A program made the position numbers and the translations under genes. Positions 53,063 to 62,536 of a DNA stretch of 64,000 nucleotides are shown one piece after another. This DNA is from Clostridia bacterium. GTDB lineage: Bacteria > Bacillota > Clostridia > Christensenellales > Aristaeellaceae. The notes under the pieces are model-generated. The model saw only the letters and a program-made list of their open reading frames with translations, made no database searches and was not told the origin of the DNA. The stretch is from positions 92,809 through 156,808 of the forward strand of contig JAGBBA010000047.1 of NCBI GenBank assembly GCA_017938695.1, written 5' to 3'. Every line of letters starts with the position of its first letter. Position 1 is the stretch's first letter.

Positions 53063-54454
53063 TCAGCGAAGCACCAGCGGCGTTTCTTCGCCCAGGTACT
53101 TCTGCACATTCTTATAGGCACGATCCTTGCTTTCGATCTGGCTTTCCGCCATACCGTCCGGCGCAGGCAGGTCGCTAGCCACCACGCGGTAGTAGTACCG
53201 CCCATCCTGCTTAAATCGCCAGATATAGGTGGGAGTATAGCTGACCTTGTTGAAGGTCACCTTTTGCCCATCGTAGCTGATATCCAGGTGCAGCAGCATG
53301 CCTGCCACGTTGGCATTGGTGCAGGAGCCATTCATCAGGCTGCCCAGGGAGTAGGCGCACAACGTCTGCTTAGTGGTTCCGTCAGCCAGATTGCCCGTGA
53401 GCCATGTCACCGGTTGAACCACCCGGCTGCCAGCACCGATGATCACATCTACGCCGCTATCTGCCAGCTGCTGGGCAAAGGCGATCTGCTTCTTGGTGGG
53501 GGCAGTTTTGCCCGATGCGGCACTCCAGCTCAACGATACCACCACCACCTGGGCACCTTGCTGCCGGACGGCTGCCACATCCGCAAGAATCTCCCCTGCG
53601 CCGTCACTGATGGCGTCCAGCGGCACAGCATAGGTCAGGCCGTCCTTTTTCATGGCCTTTTTGCCCTTGTCGGAAAGCACATCGGTATAATGCAGCACGG
53701 CAACCTTCACGCCGCCCAGCTCCATGATGTGCCGCTGTGCAGCACGGCTGGATTCATCGGCATAGGCACCCAAAACCGTCATACCGCTGGACTGCGCCGC
53801 CGTTACAGTGGATGTCAGGCCAGCCATGCCCTGATCGTAGGCATGCTTATATCCCAGTGCAACAGCATCGATCCCCACACCGGAGAGCATGGGCAGCACG
53901 TCTTCCGGCGTGACCGTGTCGCTCAGTTTTGCCTCGGGATAAATAATGTTTTCCAGCGTGACCATGCTGAAATCCGCCGTGAGTTCATTTCTGATCAGGC
54001 TCAGCACGTCGGAAAAATCATACTTCTTGGATTCGCTGTAATAATGATCTTGCCGCAGCTCCGTATTCACGATAATGCTGCCGCCGAAGGTGGCCGAAAA
54101 CCGGCCCCCGGGCACAGGCGTAGCTGTGGGCTGAACCGTCGGCGTAGCCGTCGACACCGCAGTAGCCGTGCTGGATGCCACCGGTGCAACTGTTGCAACG
54201 GGTGCCAGCGTGGGCTGCACCGGTGCAGTTTCATCCTTCGTAACGCTGATAATGGGAATATCGCTCAGGCTCAATTCAGGCAGGGTACCATCCAGGGACA
54301 GTGCTTGCAGCACCTTATCCGTGTCGATGGTCACCTTGGTGTTGCCGCTAAGTTTGGGCAGCACCAATGCCATGCCCAGGACTACCAGGCACGTAATCGC
54401 AGTCATCACGATCGTTCCGATGGAAACACCGCGGAATTTCTTTTCCCGTGCCAC
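53063..54454 (-). CDS. CapA-family (PGA_cap) calcineurin-like protein, membrane-anchored
   Basis: A 463-residue protein. One N-terminal membrane helix (about 12-33) anchors it outside; a Thr/Pro/Ala/Val-rich spacer (about 70-115) leads to the CapA domain (FSATFGGSIIVNTEL, MVTLENIIYPEA, VDAVALGYKHAYDQG, VVVVSLSW, GAGSRVVQPV). CapA-like proteins are linked to poly-glutamate capsules and, more widely, unknown wall functions. Typical catalytic positions are partly altered: the usual GD-x2 of the first motif reads GGSI and the NNH-type motif reads GYKH, so activity may differ. RBS AAAGGAGG. Confidence 0.85.
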   Translation of the reverse strand: MAREKKFRGVSIGTIVMTAITCLVVLGMALVLPKLSGNTKVTIDTDKVLQALSLDGTLPELSLSDIPIISVTKDETAPVQPTLAPVATVAPVASSTATAVSTATPTVQPTATPVPGGRFSATFGGSIIVNTELRQDHYYSESKKYDFSDVLSLIRNELTADFSMVTLENIIYPEAKLSDTVTPEDVLPMLSGVGIDAVALGYKHAYDQGMAGLTSTVTAAQSSGMTVLGAYADESSRAAQRHIMELGGVKVAVLHYTDVLSDKGKKAMKKDGLTYAVPLDAISDGAGEILADVAAVRQQGAQVVVVSLSWSAASGKTAPTKKQIAFAQQLADSGVDVIIGAGSRVVQPVTWLTGNLADGTTKQTLCAYSLGSLMNGSCTNANVAGMLLHLDISYDGQKVTFNKVSYTPTYIWRFKQDGRYYYRVVASDLPAPDGMAESQIESKDRAYKNVQKYLGEETPLVLR

Positions 54455-56089: not shown

Positions 56090-56118
56090 TTGACGTTCAG
56101 GAAATAATTTGATACAAT
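56090..56118 (+). promoter_or_regulatory. Sigma-A promoter of the 746-residue protein gene
   Basis: TTGACG at 56090-56095 and TACAAT at 56113-56118, 17-base spacer. The leader of about 105 bases holds a small hairpin, GGAAGG with CCTTCC (near 56151-56166). Confidence 0.8.
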
Positions 56119-56229
56119 TTATACATCTGGTTCTATGTCAATTTTCAAGGAAGGGTATGACCTTCCAGGCATAAGGCGGCATGGTGGCATATGCACGCTT
56201 TATATCATCATATGGGTGGAGGCATCATG

Positions 56230-58470
56230 ATGAATCTCGAGCGCGACCTTGTATTCTGTTTTATCGAAGAAGATAATATCCAGCGGGCGTATTTCCGCGT
56301 CCGTCCGCTTTTGACCGTCCACGGCGATGTACAGCAGGACGCTGCTAACCTCTGGCCGGATAACGGCTGCCTGCGCATTGTGCCCGACCGCAATGAGCAG
56401 CACACCTTTAAGGAGCGCATGCGCACCCTGGGCGGCTACTGCATGATGAATCTGCTGGGCATCCCTTCTGATGCCAACAAGATCCGCACCAACAAGAATT
56501 ATAAGCCCGAGCGCGGTGAAAACAACCAGTTCATCCTCTACTCTGATACCGTTCAGCCCCTGCCTGAGCACACCTTCTTCCAGGTGATCGAATCCACGCC
56601 CGATGATTTTGCCAAAGCCGCCGAAACCGCTGTTACCCCTCTTTTCTACATTCGTGAAAACGATACGCTTTTCGGCCCGATCCGCAAAGCTGCGCCTGAG
56701 AAGCCCGATACCGCCAAAGAAGCCCAGGGCACGCTTTACCCCGTTGCCTGCCCCGATGGTCAGGAACGCGTGCTGCTGTGCATCGAAGAACCGATGCCAG
56801 CAGAGAAGGCAGCGCCTGCCGTTCCCCAGGAAGAACCCAAAGCTGCCGAACCGGCTCCCGAATCCGTTGCAGAAAAGCAGGAGCAAGAGGGCGAGCTGCC
56901 CATCGGCAAGCCGCTGCAGATCCTGGATCAGAACAAAAATTTCGAAGAAACCCTTCAGGGCCTGGATCAGCCCCTGTCCAAGGATGCCAATCTTCTTCGC
57001 CAGGCTGAATCCAAGATCACCGAGAAACCCGTCGTCCCCGGCAATGACAAGCCTCTGAGCGGCACACCCCTGTATCGCGCCAACATGCGCACCGCTGTAC
57101 CTCAGCCCAAGAACAAGCTGCAGGAGGTCGTTTCTGCCCAGTGGCGTGTTGCCCGCAACGAGCCCCCCACGGCTCCCCTGCCTGCCGGTGCCAAGATGCA
57201 TCAGGTAGAAAACCCCGTGGAGATCGCCTGCACCAGCATGAAGGCTGCCTGGCAGGTGCCCGAAGCCCAGACCCAGCTCATTGACCTGATCCTGTCCCTG
57301 GACGGCATGCGCGCCAAGCTGGAGCCGTATATGGTGGAATCTACCGCTAATTCGCCCCTGCAAAAGGCCATGCAGGCCCACTTGCAGGACATGGAAGCCG
57401 AGCGTCTTTCCGTGCTGCTGCAGCTGGACAAGGCCAAGGCTGACCTTGACGCTTTCCGCCGTACCACGCTGGACAGCCTGTCTGAGAAGACCAAGCAGGA
57501 AACAACCAAGCTTGAGGCTGCCAAGGCAGAGTTGGAAAGTGCCGTCAGCAACCTGAAAGCTCAGCAGGATGCTCTGCTTGCCCAGCGCGACGAGCTCCTT
57601 CACCGCATTGATGAATTGCAGCAGAGCAGCCTTCCCGCCGCGCTGGCCAAAGCCATGGCGGATGCGCAGCTTGCCGCCCCTGTTGCAGGTATTCCCCTGC
57701 GCATGAGCCCCGTCAGCGGCCACAAGGTCGAAGTGGACGAAATGATCCAGCGCGTTATGGATGCCTTTAATGCCAGCGGCATGCCTGTCAAGCGCAACCA
57801 TGCTATTGCTATGCTGGCTGTGCTGGCTGCGTCCTCCCGCATCGGCCTGGTATCCGCTGCGCCCGCCGCAGCCTCCACCCTGGTCAAGAACATTGCCACA
57901 GCCCTGGGCTGGCAGAACGGCTTTGTGCAGCAGGTCACCACCGAGCAAAAGCCCCTGCTTTCTCCCCTGCCTGCTGATGCTGCTCCCGCTGTACTGCTAA
58001 CGACCCTGGCCGCCTATGCACCCCTTGACAACATCACCAAGGTCATGCTGGCACGCAATACAGGCAACCTGACCCGCAATGCAGCCTATGAAACCTGCTC
58101 CTGGCCCATCGTTCAGCTGCCGGAGCTGCCCGTTATTCCCGAGATTCCCGCCCACGACGGCTGCAAGGCCATCAGCACGGCTGCCCTGAAAGCACTGCTT
58201 GATCAGCCCGCCATTGCCCGGCAGGAGATCGAACAGATCCTTTCCGGCATCCTGGCACAGATCACCCCGATCTCCGGCGCAGCCCTTAAGGAAATGCAGC
58301 AGTTCATCTCCGCCTGTGCCGCCCTGATGGACGGCGGACTGGCCGCCGCCTGCGACTGGGCCATCCTGCTGTGGATTCTCCCCGGCATCGACCGCAACGC
58401 CAAGGCCGCAAATGCTCTCAAGCCGCTTCTGGCTGAATATCCCCTGTCCCTGGCGAAGCTTCAAGCATAA
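56230..58470 (+). CDS. Unknown 746-residue protein with coiled coil and degenerate AAA-like P-loop
   Basis: Not a recognised family. Residues 1-150 form a globular domain (NLERDLVFCFIEEDNIQRAY, GCLRIVPDRNEQ, GGYCMMNLLGIPSD). A Pro/Glu/Ala-rich linker covers about 150-300. A charged coiled coil spans about 388-464. The helical C-terminal region (about 505-746) has the layout of McrB-like AAA ATPases: NHAIAMLAVLAASSRIGLV leads to SAAPAAAST (542-550) where GPPGxGKST would stand, then LVKNIATALGW. The Walker lysine and glycines are missing and no Walker B is clear, so nucleotide hydrolysis is unlikely. No signal peptide. ATG 56230 has GGAGG at seven bases. Monocistronic, with own promoter and terminator. 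Confidence 0.85.
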   Translation: MNLERDLVFCFIEEDNIQRAYFRVRPLLTVHGDVQQDAANLWPDNGCLRIVPDRNEQHTFKERMRTLGGYCMMNLLGIPSDANKIRTNKNYKPERGENNQFILYSDTVQPLPEHTFFQVIESTPDDFAKAAETAVTPLFYIRENDTLFGPIRKAAPEKPDTAKEAQGTLYPVACPDGQERVLLCIEEPMPAEKAAPAVPQEEPKAAEPAPESVAEKQEQEGELPIGKPLQILDQNKNFEETLQGLDQPLSKDANLLRQAESKITEKPVVPGNDKPLSGTPLYRANMRTAVPQPKNKLQEVVSAQWRVARNEPPTAPLPAGAKMHQVENPVEIACTSMKAAWQVPEAQTQLIDLILSLDGMRAKLEPYMVESTANSPLQKAMQAHLQDMEAERLSVLLQLDKAKADLDAFRRTTLDSLSEKTKQETTKLEAAKAELESAVSNLKAQQDALLAQRDELLHRIDELQQSSLPAALAKAMADAQLAAPVAGIPLRMSPVSGHKVEVDEMIQRVMDAFNASGMPVKRNHAIAMLAVLAASSRIGLVSAAPAAASTLVKNIATALGWQNGFVQQVTTEQKPLLSPLPADAAPAVLLTTLAAYAPLDNITKVMLARNTGNLTRNAAYETCSWPIVQLPELPVIPEIPAHDGCKAISTAALKALLDQPAIARQEIEQILSGILAQITPISGAALKEMQQFISACAALMDGGLAAACDWAILLWILPGIDRNAKAANALKPLLAEYPLSLAKLQA

Positions 58471-58475
58471 CATCA

Positions 58476-58505
58476 TCCCGGAGGAACATCATCCTCCGGG
58501 ATTTT
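58476..58505 (+). terminator. Terminator of the 746-residue protein gene
   Basis: TCCCGGAGGA and TCCTCCGGGA arms around ACATCA, then TTTTCC. The end of spoIIP overlaps the second arm. Confidence 0.8.
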
Positions 58506-59373
58506 CCTTTGTCAGCGTGTCTGCTATGGCCTGTGCCAGATAAGGTATGCCAGCCAGCACTTCCTCCAGCGTGTTATAGTTGAGCCCGCATTCGATCAGC
58601 ACACACCGCGGCGCGATATGCTGGTTGAACCGGCCTGTTTTCACCTTGATGTCCCGGCAGAGGCCCTCCACCTGGCCGTTCATGCTGGATGTAAGCTGCT
58701 GTGCGATCAGCATATTCGCCTCCCAGTCAGGCTTTTCGTCATAGCCCTGACCTTTGCCCACAAGCACCATAAATCGCGCTACTTCTTCCCCCGCAACATT
58801 CACCGTGCGCTTGATGGTGGAGTTTGAGGCAATGGCATCCCGGTGAAGATCAATATACAGGTCGTATGTTTCCCCTGCTTGCTGCCGCGCCTCCAGCATA
58901 ACCAGCGATCTTTGATAGGCCGTGGACAAATCCGGCGGTTCAAAGGCGGTTTCATCGTGAACCACGGTGCAGCCCTGCACCTCCAGCGCGGCCGCTAAGG
59001 CATTGCCTACGGCCACCATGTTGACCCGGTTATCCTTGCTGCGCCATTTCTCTGTTTCTTCATAGCGGTTACCCTCCACCTGCTCAAAGGCTTCCCAGGT
59101 GTGGGTGTGATAGATCAGCACGGTTTTCCCGGCAAGCAGCGGCGGCTCTGTGCTTCTCACGATCTCAACCCGAAGGGACGTATCCACCACCGGCGCAGGC
59201 GTTTCCACAACAAACGACAAATCCGCCTCTGCAAAGGCAGCAACGGCCTCGCTTTCCGGCTCTGCTTGTCCATCCAGCATGGAAGCAATGCACACGCCTG
59301 TTAAAACCATCAGCAGCATCATTCCCAAAAGAATGGCCACCGCCTGACTTTTCTTCCATACATAAAAACGCAC
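58489..59373 (-). CDS. spoIIP: Stage II sporulation protein P
   Basis: A 294-residue cell-wall amidase/endopeptidase of the engulfment complex (with SpoIID and SpoIIM). One N-terminal membrane helix (about 10-31), a spacer, then the amidase domain: VLIYHTHTWEAF (zinc His), IDLHRDAI and the C-terminal VLIECG motif. The start is GTG 59373 with GAGGTG at seven bases. It follows gpr, the usual order in Clostridia and Bacilli, and would act in the mother cell membrane. Confidence 0.94.
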   Translation of the reverse strand: MRFYVWKKSQAVAILLGMMLLMVLTGVCIASMLDGQAEPESEAVAAFAEADLSFVVETPAPVVDTSLRVEIVRSTEPPLLAGKTVLIYHTHTWEAFEQVEGNRYEETEKWRSKDNRVNMVAVGNALAAALEVQGCTVVHDETAFEPPDLSTAYQRSLVMLEARQQAGETYDLYIDLHRDAIASNSTIKRTVNVAGEEVARFMVLVGKGQGYDEKPDWEANMLIAQQLTSSMNGQVEGLCRDIKVKTGRFNQHIAPRCVLIECGLNYNTLEEVLAGIPYLAQAIADTLTKENPGG

Positions 59374-59429
59374 GATGCTGCACCTCGCTCTCTTTGTTAG
59401 AGCCTATGCAGCACCCTGCGCATATAGAC

Positions 59430-60317
59430 TTAATGCAAATAATGCGACAATTCTTCCAGCGACATGTCGGGCTGCAACGCAGCATTGACGGCCAGGGCCA
59501 GCATGTCCGCCAGGCCCTGCACCAGTTCATCAATGTTTCGGGGCGTCACCACAAGGTCGCCGGCGGAATTGCCCGCCAGTTCTTCGGCCATTCTCTCCGC
59601 CGCTTCTTCTGAGTTGTCGTAGGACAGAATGCGCCGCAATGCGTCCCGCACGATGGTGGATGCATACACTACCATGGGAATCCCCATGGCTATCACAGGA
59701 ACGTGCAGCCACTCCTTGTCAATGCCCTGCCGGTGGTTCCCCACGCCGCTGCCGGGCCGAATGCCCGTGTCCGTCACCTGTACGGTGGTGCAAATGTGGT
59801 TCATCTCCATGGCAGCCAGGGCGTCGATCACAAGCACCGCCGCAGGCTTGATCTTCTCCGTCATACCCAGAGCCAGCTCGGCCGTTTCCACACCCGTGAT
59901 GCCCAGCACGCCCGGAGCCATGGCGCACACGCCGCGCATATTCTTCTCCTGCAAGTGCCGCGTGACCAGCACGCCACTCACCACCCGGTCGCCCAGGGCG
60001 TCTGCCGTCATGTGCCTGTTGCCCAGGCCCAGCACCAGGATGTCCCCCTGCGGCGGCAATAACAGCCGCAGCATCTGGCTGATCTCCTTGGCGATGGCCA
60101 TTCGCTCTTCAGGCAAGAGCGACGGCAGCCGCGGATGGGTCAGCGTCCAGTACACGCCCTGGGCCTTGCCCAGCCGCTGTGCGGCATCGTCTGTCATGAT
60201 CCTCACCCAGGTGGTTTCCATATCGCCCTGGTGCTGCGTGTCTACCTGCACACCGGGACCAATGCCGCCAGGGCGGATGGTGCGCTCCATAGCAAGGTCT
60301 GTTCTATATCCGGTCAT
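59430..60317 (-). CDS. gpr: Germination protease GPR
   Basis: A 295-residue aspartic-type endopeptidase (A25) that degrades small acid-soluble spore proteins at germination. Family blocks: RTDLAMERT at the N-terminus, ILVLGLGNRHMTADALGDRVV, VLVIDALAAMEMNHICTTVQVTDTGIRPGSGVGN. It is made as an inactive zymogen; the pro-part is short here. Start ATG 60317 has AAGGAGG at eight bases. A forespore-type promoter precedes it. SpoIIP follows 56 bases downstream. Confidence 0.95.
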   Translation of the reverse strand: MTGYRTDLAMERTIRPGGIGPGVQVDTQHQGDMETTWVRIMTDDAAQRLGKAQGVYWTLTHPRLPSLLPEERMAIAKEISQMLRLLLPPQGDILVLGLGNRHMTADALGDRVVSGVLVTRHLQEKNMRGVCAMAPGVLGITGVETAELALGMTEKIKPAAVLVIDALAAMEMNHICTTVQVTDTGIRPGSGVGNHRQGIDKEWLHVPVIAMGIPMVVYASTIVRDALRRILSYDNSEEAAERMAEELAGNSAGDLVVTPRNIDELVQGLADMLALAVNAALQPDMSLEELSHYLH

Positions 60318-60341
60318 ACTGCATTCCTCCTTGAATGCAGT

Positions 60342-60371
60342 TAGTATGTGCACTCCACCGAATTCCATCCA
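60342..60371 (-). promoter_or_regulatory. Probable sigma-F/sigma-G promoter of gpr
   Basis: Minus strand TGGATG (60366-60371) and CATACTA (60342-60348), 17 bases apart. The -10 matches the forespore sigma consensus fully and the -35 four of six; gpr is a known forespore gene. Confidence 0.6.
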
Positions 60372-60373
60372 CG

Positions 60374-60403
60374 AAAAAAGGCCTGCATTTCGCAGACCTT
60401 TTT
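60374..60403 (-). terminator. Terminator of the phosphoribosyltransferase gene
   Basis: Minus strand AAAAAGGTCTGC and GCAGGCCTTTTTT around GAAAT, with one G-T/G-C change; T run follows. It lies beside the gpr promoter. Confidence 0.75.
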
Positions 60404-60405
60404 GC

Positions 60406-60960
60406 TTAGCCGATGATCTCGCCCTTCTTGTTGAACAGGGGCAGCTTTTCCAGGTACTTGATATCCTCGCGCTGCTGGGCGTCGCCTTCAGCCAGGATGG
60501 CCAGCTTGCCAACGATATTGCCGCCAGCTTTCTGAACCAGCTCTTCGATGGCGCGCAGGGATTCGCCGGTGGAAATCACGTCATCCACGATCAGGATGCG
60601 CTTGCCCTTCATCAGGGCGGCATCGTTGCCATCCAGGTACAGCTTCTGCACATGGTTGGTGGTGATGGACTTCACTTCCACCGAGAAGGTGTTCTGCATA
60701 TAGACCTTCTCACCCTTGCGGGCCAGCAGCCACTTGGCGTCGCCATGCTGGCGGGCCATTTCGTAGCCCAGCGGAATACCCTTGGATTCAGCGGTGATCA
60801 GGTAGTCATACTCGGGGGCAATATCCAGCAGAGCCTTGGCACAGGCCACGGTCAGCTCCACATCGCCGAAGATGACAAACGCGCCGATGTACAGTTCATC
60901 GGATACAGGGCACAGGGGCAGTTCGCGCTTCACGCCAGCAATCGTCATGGGATACTTCAT
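60406..60960 (-). CDS. Type I phosphoribosyltransferase (adenine phosphoribosyltransferase-like)
   Basis: A 184-residue PRTase. The PRPP motif is RILIVDDVISTGESL (near 127-141); the flexible loop and the PPi loop AESKGIPLGYEMA are seen. Likely base salvage with PRPP, adenine or xanthine; the sequence does not settle which. ATG 60960 has GAAGG at about ten bases; upstream in-frame codons lack a site. Its own promoter lies just after the spoIVA stop. Confidence 0.88.
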   Translation of the reverse strand: MKYPMTIAGVKRELPLCPVSDELYIGAFVIFGDVELTVACAKALLDIAPEYDYLITAESKGIPLGYEMARQHGDAKWLLARKGEKVYMQNTFSVEVKSITTNHVQKLYLDGNDAALMKGKRILIVDDVISTGESLRAIEELVQKAGGNIVGKLAILAEGDAQQREDIKYLEKLPLFNKKGEIIG

Positions 60961-61017
60961 CGGTATCGACCTTCGTTTCATTTGAATTTGTAACGGCCTC
61001 AAAAGCCTTTACAATTG

Positions 61018-61046
61018 ATTGTAGCGCGAATCTCGTCTGTTGTCAA
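61018..61046 (-). promoter_or_regulatory. Sigma-A promoter of the phosphoribosyltransferase gene
   Basis: Minus strand TTGACA (61041-61046) and TACAAT (61018-61023), 17-base spacer. The leader can form a ten-base hairpin, TTGTAAAGGC with GCCGTTACAA (one mismatch). Confidence 0.8.
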
Positions 61047-61048
61047 CC

Positions 61049-62536
61049 TTACAGCAGGATGCAGATCATACCGCCGTCGCCTTCGTTGATGATGCGCGAC
61101 AGGGTCTCCTGCACCTTCTGCTGGGCATCGGCAGGCATGCGAAGAAGCTTGTTGTTGAGACCGTCACGCACCATGTCATTGAGGCTCTTGCCGAAGAAAT
61201 TGGTGCTCCAAATCTTTTGCGGATCGGTTTCGAATTCGTCCAGCATGTACTTCACCAGCTCTTCGCTCTGCTTTTCCGTGCCCACCACCGGAGTGACCTC
61301 CGTTTCGATATCCACCCGAATCAGATGCAGCGACGGCGCGTGTGCCTTTAGCTTTACGCCGAATTGACCGCCCTGTTTCACGATCTCAGGCTCTTCCAGG
61401 GCCATTTCTGCCATGGTAGGCGTGACCAGGCCGTAGCCCGTATCACGCACGGCCTGCAAGGCCTCGGCAATGTGGTCATACTCCGCCTTGGCACTGACCA
61501 GCTCCTTCATCAACGAAAGCAGGTGAGCATCACCCTTGATCTCTGTACCGCATTCCTCGCCCAGCACCTGATTGAACAATCCGTCCTTCAGCGGCAGCGC
61601 AAAATCCGCCCGTCCCTCGCCTGGAAACACCTGCTGGGCACTGATCTCCTGCGCATAGGGCGACTCAGCAAACACATCGGAGAACACGTCACTTTCGCGC
61701 ATTTTCCGGCTTGTCTGACCTGCTGTGCGCACCGCATCCAGCACATGCTTCACCAGCCAATGGCTGTTGTCCAGTGCCCCCAGCCATGCCGGTACGGACA
61801 AGTGCGCCTCACGCAGCGGAAACTCCATCAGGATGCTTTCCAGCACATGCTGGATATCCTCCACAGACATTTCCTTCACATTCAGCAGCATCACGGGCAC
61901 CGCATACTTATCTTCCAACGCATCCCGGAGCGTCAGCGTTTCAGCCGCCCTGGGCTGCGCCGAGTTGAGCACAATCACAAAGGGCTTTCCCAGCTGCTTC
62001 AATTCGCCCACCACGCGTTCCTCCGCGTCCACATAGGCACCGCGGGGCAGATCGGTAATGCTGCCGTCGGTGGTCACCACCATGCCGATGGTGGCATGAT
62101 CAGTCATCACTTTGCGTGTGCCGATTTCAGCCGCCTGCTCAAAGGGAATGTCGTGATCGTACCAGGGGGTGTGCACCATCCGAGCCGCGTCGTTTTCCGA
62201 TGTCCCCAGTGCCCCCTTGACCAAATAGCCCACGCTGTCCACCAGCCGCACACGCACCGGCGTCTGCTCCTGCAGCATGACCTCCACAGCCTCGCCCGGC
62301 ACAAACTTGGGCTGCGTGGTCATGATCGTCCTGCCGGAGCCACTCTGGGGCAGTTCATCCGCCAGCCGTTCGCGCCTGGGCCCTGCCGAAACAGCAGGCA
62401 ACACCAGCTGCTCCATAAACCTGGTGATAAACGTGCTCTTTCCCGTGCGGACAGGCCCGACCACGCCGATGTACACGTCGCCGTCCGTCCGTTCTGCAAT
62501 ATCCTTGTAAAGATTGAAAGTCGAACCCTTTTCCAT
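61049..62536 (-). CDS. spoIVA: Stage IV sporulation protein A
   Basis: A 495-residue ATPase that polymerises on the forespore surface as the base of the coat. Walker A GPVRTGKS is at 27-34; PQSGSGRTIMTTQPKFVP, DSVGYLVKGALG and the switch-like region are intact. It ends in the hydrophobic GGMICILL tail used for anchoring by SpoVM in relatives. Full family length. ATG 62536 follows GAGGAGGG. A sigma-E-like promoter precedes it. Confidence 0.97.
   Translation of the reverse strand: MEKGSTFNLYKDIAERTDGDVYIGVVGPVRTGKSTFITRFMEQLVLPAVSAGPRRERLADELPQSGSGRTIMTTQPKFVPGEAVEVMLQEQTPVRVRLVDSVGYLVKGALGTSENDAARMVHTPWYDHDIPFEQAAEIGTRKVMTDHATIGMVVTTDGSITDLPRGAYVDAEERVVGELKQLGKPFVIVLNSAQPRAAETLTLRDALEDKYAVPVMLLNVKEMSVEDIQHVLESILMEFPLREAHLSVPAWLGALDNSHWLVKHVLDAVRTAGQTSRKMRESDVFSDVFAESPYAQEISAQQVFPGEGRADFALPLKDGLFNQVLGEECGTEIKGDAHLLSLMKELVSAKAEYDHIAEALQAVRDTGYGLVTPTMAEMALEEPEIVKQGGQFGVKLKAHAPSLHLIRVDIETEVTPVVGTEKQSEELVKYMLDEFETDPQKIWSTNFFGKSLNDMVRDGLNNKLLRMPADAQQKVQETLSRIINEGDGGMICILL

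Follow-up and report, generated by a model that had tools for sequence, protein, structure and literature searches.

A vertically inherited pseudo-AAA protein of Clostridia, probably a non-catalytic adaptor descended from McrB-type ATPases

The gene, its signals and its distribution

The 64,000-nucleotide stretch of DNA analysed here (the window) contains an open reading frame, conserved among relatives, of 746 residues plus a stop codon, whose product we call the pseudo-AAA protein (Table 1). The window genome, the assembly of which is 87.5% complete, carries one copy. The original prediction had divided the protein into an unrecognised N-terminal domain of 150 residues, a Pro/Glu linker, a coiled coil and a C-terminal AAA remnant. 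The N-terminal domain and the linker stand, with the domain reaching to about residue 187 rather than 150, and the coiled coil is marked by weak matches only. Searches of the whole protein against Pfam, NCBIfam, PHROGs and PADLOC returned coiled-coil matches and nothing else. The N-terminal domain is strictly conserved and rich in Arg, Lys and Asn; in an alignment of 25 sequences (A1), 21 of the 27 invariant columns fall within residues 1-160. When the N-terminal domains of 45 members were compared with Pfam, only scattered weak matches were obtained, each in one or two members, and comparison with the PDB gave no convincing match (best E 0.3). In one genus of the same bacterial family, g44, the protein is just 431-437 residues long (L155:5166-6503 and L156:1930-3240), having lost the coiled coil but kept the N-terminal domain and a short piece of the dead domain.

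Table 1. Features of the pseudo-AAA protein gene and its product in the window.
Feature	Position	Strand	Basis or remark
Promoter-like TTGACG-17-TACAAT, TG before second hexamer	56090..56118	+	consensus match only
GGAGG, likely ribosome binding site, 7 nt ahead of ATG 56230	56218..56222	+	sequence reading
Pseudo-AAA protein gene	56230..58470	+	homologues in 194/300 genomes of the window's bacterial family
N-terminal domain, residues 1-187	56230..56790	+	alignment; without convincing Pfam or PDB relative
Pro/Glu-rich linker with conserved stretches, residues 188-382	56791..57375	+	alignment
Coiled coil, about residues 383-467	57376..57630	+	weak coiled-coil family matches only
Pseudo-AAA domain, residues 490-746	57697..58467	+	profile match to intact homologues
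Former Walker A SAAPAAAS, residues 542-549	57853..57876	+	Lys column in aligned rows
Former Walker B VLLTTLA, residues 588-594	57991..58011	+	alignment; intact relatives mostly hhhhDDAN
Terminator-like stem-loop between gene and convergent spoIIP	58475..58502	+	consensus match

The gene had also been credited with a strong promoter of its own. The promoter-like site ahead of it matches 10 of 12 consensus positions, and two such sites were found around the gene compared with 1.1 in shuffled sequence, so that the claim of strength is unsupported. Downstream, spoIIP lies convergent to the gene in all 15 same-genus loci, mostly within about 100 bases, with distances of about 0.4 kb in genome G004 and about 1 kb in G001. 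The segment of the window at 58489-62536 carries spoIIP, gpr and spoIVA, whose presence makes it probable that the organism forms spores. The distribution of SpoIVA in the window's bacterial family is patchy (22/40 genomes), and a link between the gene and sporulation was rejected because SpoIVA does not track the gene: it was found in 15 of the 26 genomes that carry the gene and in 7 of the 14 that lack it. A PGA_cap capsule-synthesis-like protein (Pfam E 1.1e-39) is encoded at 53063-54454 of the window, adjoining a CNNM/CBS-domain gene.

In a profile search of 300 genomes of the window's bacterial family, the 194 matching genomes represented 36 of 50 genera, and 86 of the 120 good genomes had a match. 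No copy was found in the other 106 of the 300, perhaps in part through incomplete assembly, and three genomes of the window's own genus gave no match. An order-wide sample gave matches in 18 of 297 genomes, of which 16 belong to the window's bacterial family and two are weak (E about 5e-4, profile positions 425-519, mostly coiled coil). In a class-wide sample of 291 genomes, six besides that of the window gave weak matches (E 4e-7 to 6e-4, positions 425-573). A profile of the N-terminal domain matched the window's genome only among 348 phylum-wide genomes, the 347 others being negative. Three of five near relatives are labelled as coming from deer or sheep gut. Word searches of one open-access library listed no report of the protein.

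AAA ancestry of the C-terminal domain

Genes were fetched from 31 of the 36 matching genera and aligned in 71 rows from 70 genomes. Homologues with an intact GxxxxGK[ST], for which the original prediction had proposed a search, were found in 11 of the 31 genera (g2, g4, g11, g17, g18, g62, g63, g64, g69, g71 and g73). Fifteen genera, including the window's genus g1, have lost the Walker A motif, and five have it partly decayed (g6 GxxFAPKG, g19 GPVGSGKR, g55 GPAASDK, g60 GPSGAECR and g74 GPCGSGKG), this 'partial' class having been defined after the sequences had been inspected.

Comparison of a profile of 16 window-clade domains with one of 19 intact domains gave an alignment of 244 columns (probability 98.2, E 5.3e-14) in which SAAPAAAS of the window protein is placed on GPAGCGKS of the intact members. 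Nineteen domains from other lost genera likewise matched the intact domains (99.2%, E 7.2e-20). The intact domains match AAA+ chains of midasin, Rix7/NVL, Cdc48 and McrB among the best 60 of 733 PDB matches, McrB (6hz4) at E 1.1e-5, and the intact members L061 and L142 clear the Pfam cut-off for AAA. The proposed AAA ancestry is thus borne out by homologues that have GxxGxGK[ST] and match AAA+ structures, and the profile comparisons point to common ancestry of the pseudo-AAA domain with AAA+ ATPases.

The strength of these profile matches, together with the N-terminal domain, coiled coil and C-terminal helical region that intact and lost members have in common, makes it very improbable that the domain is not AAA and that the likeness arose by chance, even though the window-clade domain taken alone finds no AAA match in Pfam and none in the PDB. 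A profile of intact domains that contains no lost member (A2) ranked the pseudo-AAA gene first in the window genome (E 3.8e-8, positions 5-74; next match 1.5e-4). The same was true of three of eight lost-clade genomes in all, the window's own included (G000, G012 and G015). The remaining five accord with a chance likeness, the gene being placed below other AAA-like matches in G026 (E 0.0048) and not listed at E up to 0.01 in G008, G084, G032 and G024.

Motif loss, inheritance and selection

The loss of the P-loop, first read from SAAPAAAST at residues 542-550, is confirmed by the alignment: SAAPAAAS (residues 542-549) replaces the GxxGxGK[ST] that relatives have at the same column, and the Lys column is occupied by A548. 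The window protein thus lacks the AAA+ Walker A consensus GxxxxGK[ST], and in place of the Walker B consensus hhhhDE it has VLLTTLA. Among the 67 rows used for the gene tree, 17 have an intact Walker A, nine are partly decayed and 41, including the window, are lost. The Lys column holds K in 17/17 intact, 8/9 partial and 0/41 lost rows; an arginine-finger-like motif, composed after the intact rows had been viewed, is found in 17/17, 1/9 and 0/41, respectively; and the hhhhDDAN form of Walker B is kept in none of the 41 lost rows. Neither the Walker B Glu nor the sensor-1 Asn is present even in the 17 'intact' rows. At the position of the second Walker B acid 16 of them have Asp, one has Ala and none has Glu, and regular-expression matches to the Glu in one partial row and to the Asn in one intact row are both off-site. 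The NxxD/NxD signature of McrB is also absent, intact rows having T.QD or T.LD at this point, plus one each of TLRD, SVLD and NCLD.

With Walker A, Walker B and the finger segment all lost, the window-clade domain is expected to be incapable of binding or hydrolysing ATP at the usual site. A nucleotide-dependent switch, in which the domain would bind nucleotide in an altered way as in PcdA, is an unlikely alternative on this evidence. PcdA, as described in PMC10602043, is an McrB-family cell-division factor of S. aureus that binds FtsZ and DivIVA, and despite a largely degraded Walker A it slowly hydrolyses ATP and GTP; most partly decayed rows here (8/9) similarly keep the P-loop Lys in an altered loop. 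However, PcdA is described there as retaining both this Lys and the Mg-binding Asp, whereas Lys and finger motif are missing from all 41 lost-clade rows and the hhhhDDAN Walker B survives in none.

The gene tree was built from these 67 rows by a quick method with the AAA domain left out, and is unrooted; four partial rows of the 71 (L049, L062, L063 and L064) were omitted. The 41 lost rows form one side of a single branch (SH-aLRT 100). Counted by the strict label, there are six changes in all, and five origins are counted for the partial rows, three of them forced by well-supported branches. Of 30 genomes taken for an rpoB tree, with frames picked by blastp, 28 were used and the fragmentary G035 and G023 were dropped; this tree shows the same intact/lost split (SH-aLRT 100, one change). 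As the lost rows lie on one branch and the rpoB split agrees, the main loss happened once and early, and the gene has been inherited vertically at the depth of the main split. Parsimony on this unrooted tree suggests that an intact Walker A is the ancestral state.

The gene had been said to show no decay, and this holds. Each of 14 other same-genus genes is one uninterrupted frame; a single stop marked by one search in three same-genus matches is absent from the 300-genome profile search. In eight of eight lost-clade pairs dN/dS was 0.17-0.50 for the C-terminal domain and 0.03-0.22 for the N-terminal domain, and at most 0.50 wherever computable, these being rough values from a simple counting method at dS 0.49-1.7. 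The dead domain is therefore still in use, though less constrained than the N-terminal domain. The further suggestion that the loss itself looks selected does not follow, since the data reflect purifying selection on the remnant and not selection for the loss.

Mixed AAA+ rings, such as those of clamp loaders, are well known to include dead subunits, and a domain held under purifying selection could be such a subunit, regulating a catalytic AAA+ protein encoded elsewhere. The original prediction had raised this role, which we regard as improbable: in the window genome (87.5% complete) no second copy and no paralogue with the family's domain was found, and the proposed survey of gene neighbours revealed no AAA+ partner that stays adjacent among the 28 of 297 neighbour clusters listed. 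No constant effector gene was seen among these clusters either. Among same-strand neighbours the most widespread is an RlmB/TrmH-like methyltransferase. Its frame (L050:9582-10358 and 14 other genomes, in eight lost genera) overlaps or abuts the end of the gene; g63 has a related gene about 1.4 kb downstream. Two of these genes were tested and both scored under the RlmB cut-off. The association hints at a link to translation. It was left out of the mechanism proposed below because the methyltransferase gene does not adjoin the pseudo-AAA gene in the window's genus.

Relation to McrB-type systems and proposed role

A search of other Clostridia gave some match in 29 of 147 genomes, three of them along the full query. 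In the outside relatives L163, L165 and L166 an N-terminal domain, a coiled coil and an McrB-like AAA domain with the motifs GxPGxGKT, LLDEAN and TINYD are followed directly by a second gene. The AAA domains of the intact members match those of these NxD-type relatives at 99.3% (E 6.8e-21), a profile match to McrB-type AAA domains. The window-clade domain compared directly gave nothing (probability 0.24%), so that its link to the McrB-type relatives runs through the intact members. For the N-terminal domains the match to the outside relatives was weak, at 32% (E 4.9e-4, 123 columns) compared with E 0.14-0.27 for three controls, and at 9% (E 0.0035) against one outside sequence; the two sets of N-terminal domains may be related.

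According to PMC11090510, the CoCoNuT systems belong among the NxD-branch McrB proteins that have long coiled coils. The pseudo-AAA protein resembles these GTPases in the fusion of a long coiled coil to an McrB-like AAA domain, and the three outside relatives resemble them further in their NxD motif (NYD), Walker B DE and adjacent downstream gene. Unlike CoCoNuT as described there, the protein of the window's bacterial family lacks the NxD Asn and the Walker B Glu, and the window clade has no P-loop. Its coiled coil is likely, NxD is absent, and a nuclease was not seen by tests that miss diverged partners. A partner profile, which recognises the close partner type only, matched none of 9196 ORFs around the loci of the protein family and none in the window; it finds the partner of L163 itself and nothing beside L167, L168, L169 and L171. 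The second test, PF04411, matched in one of 30 genomes of the window's bacterial family and misses the partner in G612 itself. A diverged partner would therefore go undetected.

Among PADLOC-DB models, the phage defence candidate PDC-M26A, which no paper in the open-access library searched names, matches the coiled coil and AAA domain of L163 (7.4e-21) and, weakly, two intact members of the pseudo-AAA protein family, L061 (2.8e-5) and L142 (3.8e-5). L142 has a better match to mads_8 (3.9e-7), L061 also matches mads_3 (3.7e-5), and coiled coils may inflate the PDC-M26A matches. Matches of the window protein are to DndD, PbeC and weaker coiled-coil models only; PDC-M26A is not among them.

Kinship to McrB-like systems and to PDC-M26A could mean that the protein still serves in defence, as an active sensor that needs no NTPase to kill or block phage. 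Homologues also adjoin phage-like genes in three IMG/VR contigs, such neighbours being selected for because IMG/VR holds virus-like contigs. We think a present role in defence doubtful, given the concurrence of gene and rpoB trees at the main split, the convergent spoIIP of all 15 same-genus loci and the lack of a constant effector gene among the neighbours listed. Of the homologues on the three contigs (L159, L160 and L161), two have an intact Walker A and one is cut by the contig end; they lie on the strand opposite to genes judged by eye to be portal-, terminase- or capsid-like. The site is perhaps a preferred point of prophage insertion, and no tRNA was found at these loci.

The reading we favour, and consider probable from the sequence comparisons, is that an ATPase of McrB type turned into a cell protein passed on vertically, losing catalysis and, in the window clade, the nucleotide site as well, and remaining as a non-catalytic adaptor. 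Its origin would lie in the AAA+ subunit of an McrB-like system of the NxD branch and, in the window's bacterial family, it would have become a chromosomal protein inherited vertically, with no nuclease partner seen adjacent. Loss of the partner and of catalysis (Walker B Glu, sensor-1 Asn) would have come first and that of nucleotide binding later; in the common ancestor of the half of the bacterial family to which the window belongs, the arginine-finger segment disappeared along with Walker A and Walker B. The N-terminal domain may bind one fixed cellular target while the coiled coil, together with the dead AAA domain, builds a complex or holds it together; this combination would make the protein a non-catalytic adaptor, probably an oligomeric one.

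PcdA is the nearest precedent, and a division role for the pseudo-AAA protein would be an analogy with it. As described in PMC10602043, PcdA shares with the pseudo-AAA protein an McrB-type AAA domain with degraded motifs, no linked restriction gene, occurrence in one bacterial group only and retained N-terminal domains. It differs in having two EVE domains, in the loss of the C-terminal helical bundle, and in keeping the Walker A Lys and the Mg-binding Walker B Asp. The window protein has another N-terminal domain (no EVE domain was matched in Pfam by 45 N-terminal domains), a coiled coil and the C-terminal region, and has lost Lys, Asp and finger. We put forward more tentatively, as something that could well prove otherwise, that it represents an independent and more complete domestication of McrB than PcdA, with a fully dead AAA domain as a nucleotide-free assembly platform and a new housekeeping N-terminal domain, the sister half of the bacterial family showing earlier stages in which the P-loop is retained and catalysis is weakened.

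Pseudoenzymes are common, and their stages are seldom all preserved. Here, AAA domains that are intact, partly decayed or dead occur within a single protein family, the tree of which agrees with that of the organisms at the main split. It thus becomes testable which part survives the retirement of an ATPase: the fold, the oligomer or the bound nucleotide. With the fuel site lost and the protein kept by half of the bacterial family, this is a good case for studying how an enzyme becomes a non-enzymatic part. If the proposed history is true, every step from defence motor to scaffold could be read in living relatives, and the idea that McrB-type defence proteins come to serve cell functions would gain a second bacterial lineage.

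The two-gene unit at L163:629-5424 merits mention in its own right. It combines an unknown N-terminal domain, a coiled coil and an NxD McrB-type AAA domain with a second gene that has no Pfam match and whose C-terminus resembles, by eye, a PD-(D/E)XK nuclease, and it is possibly an undescribed defence system related to PDC-M26.
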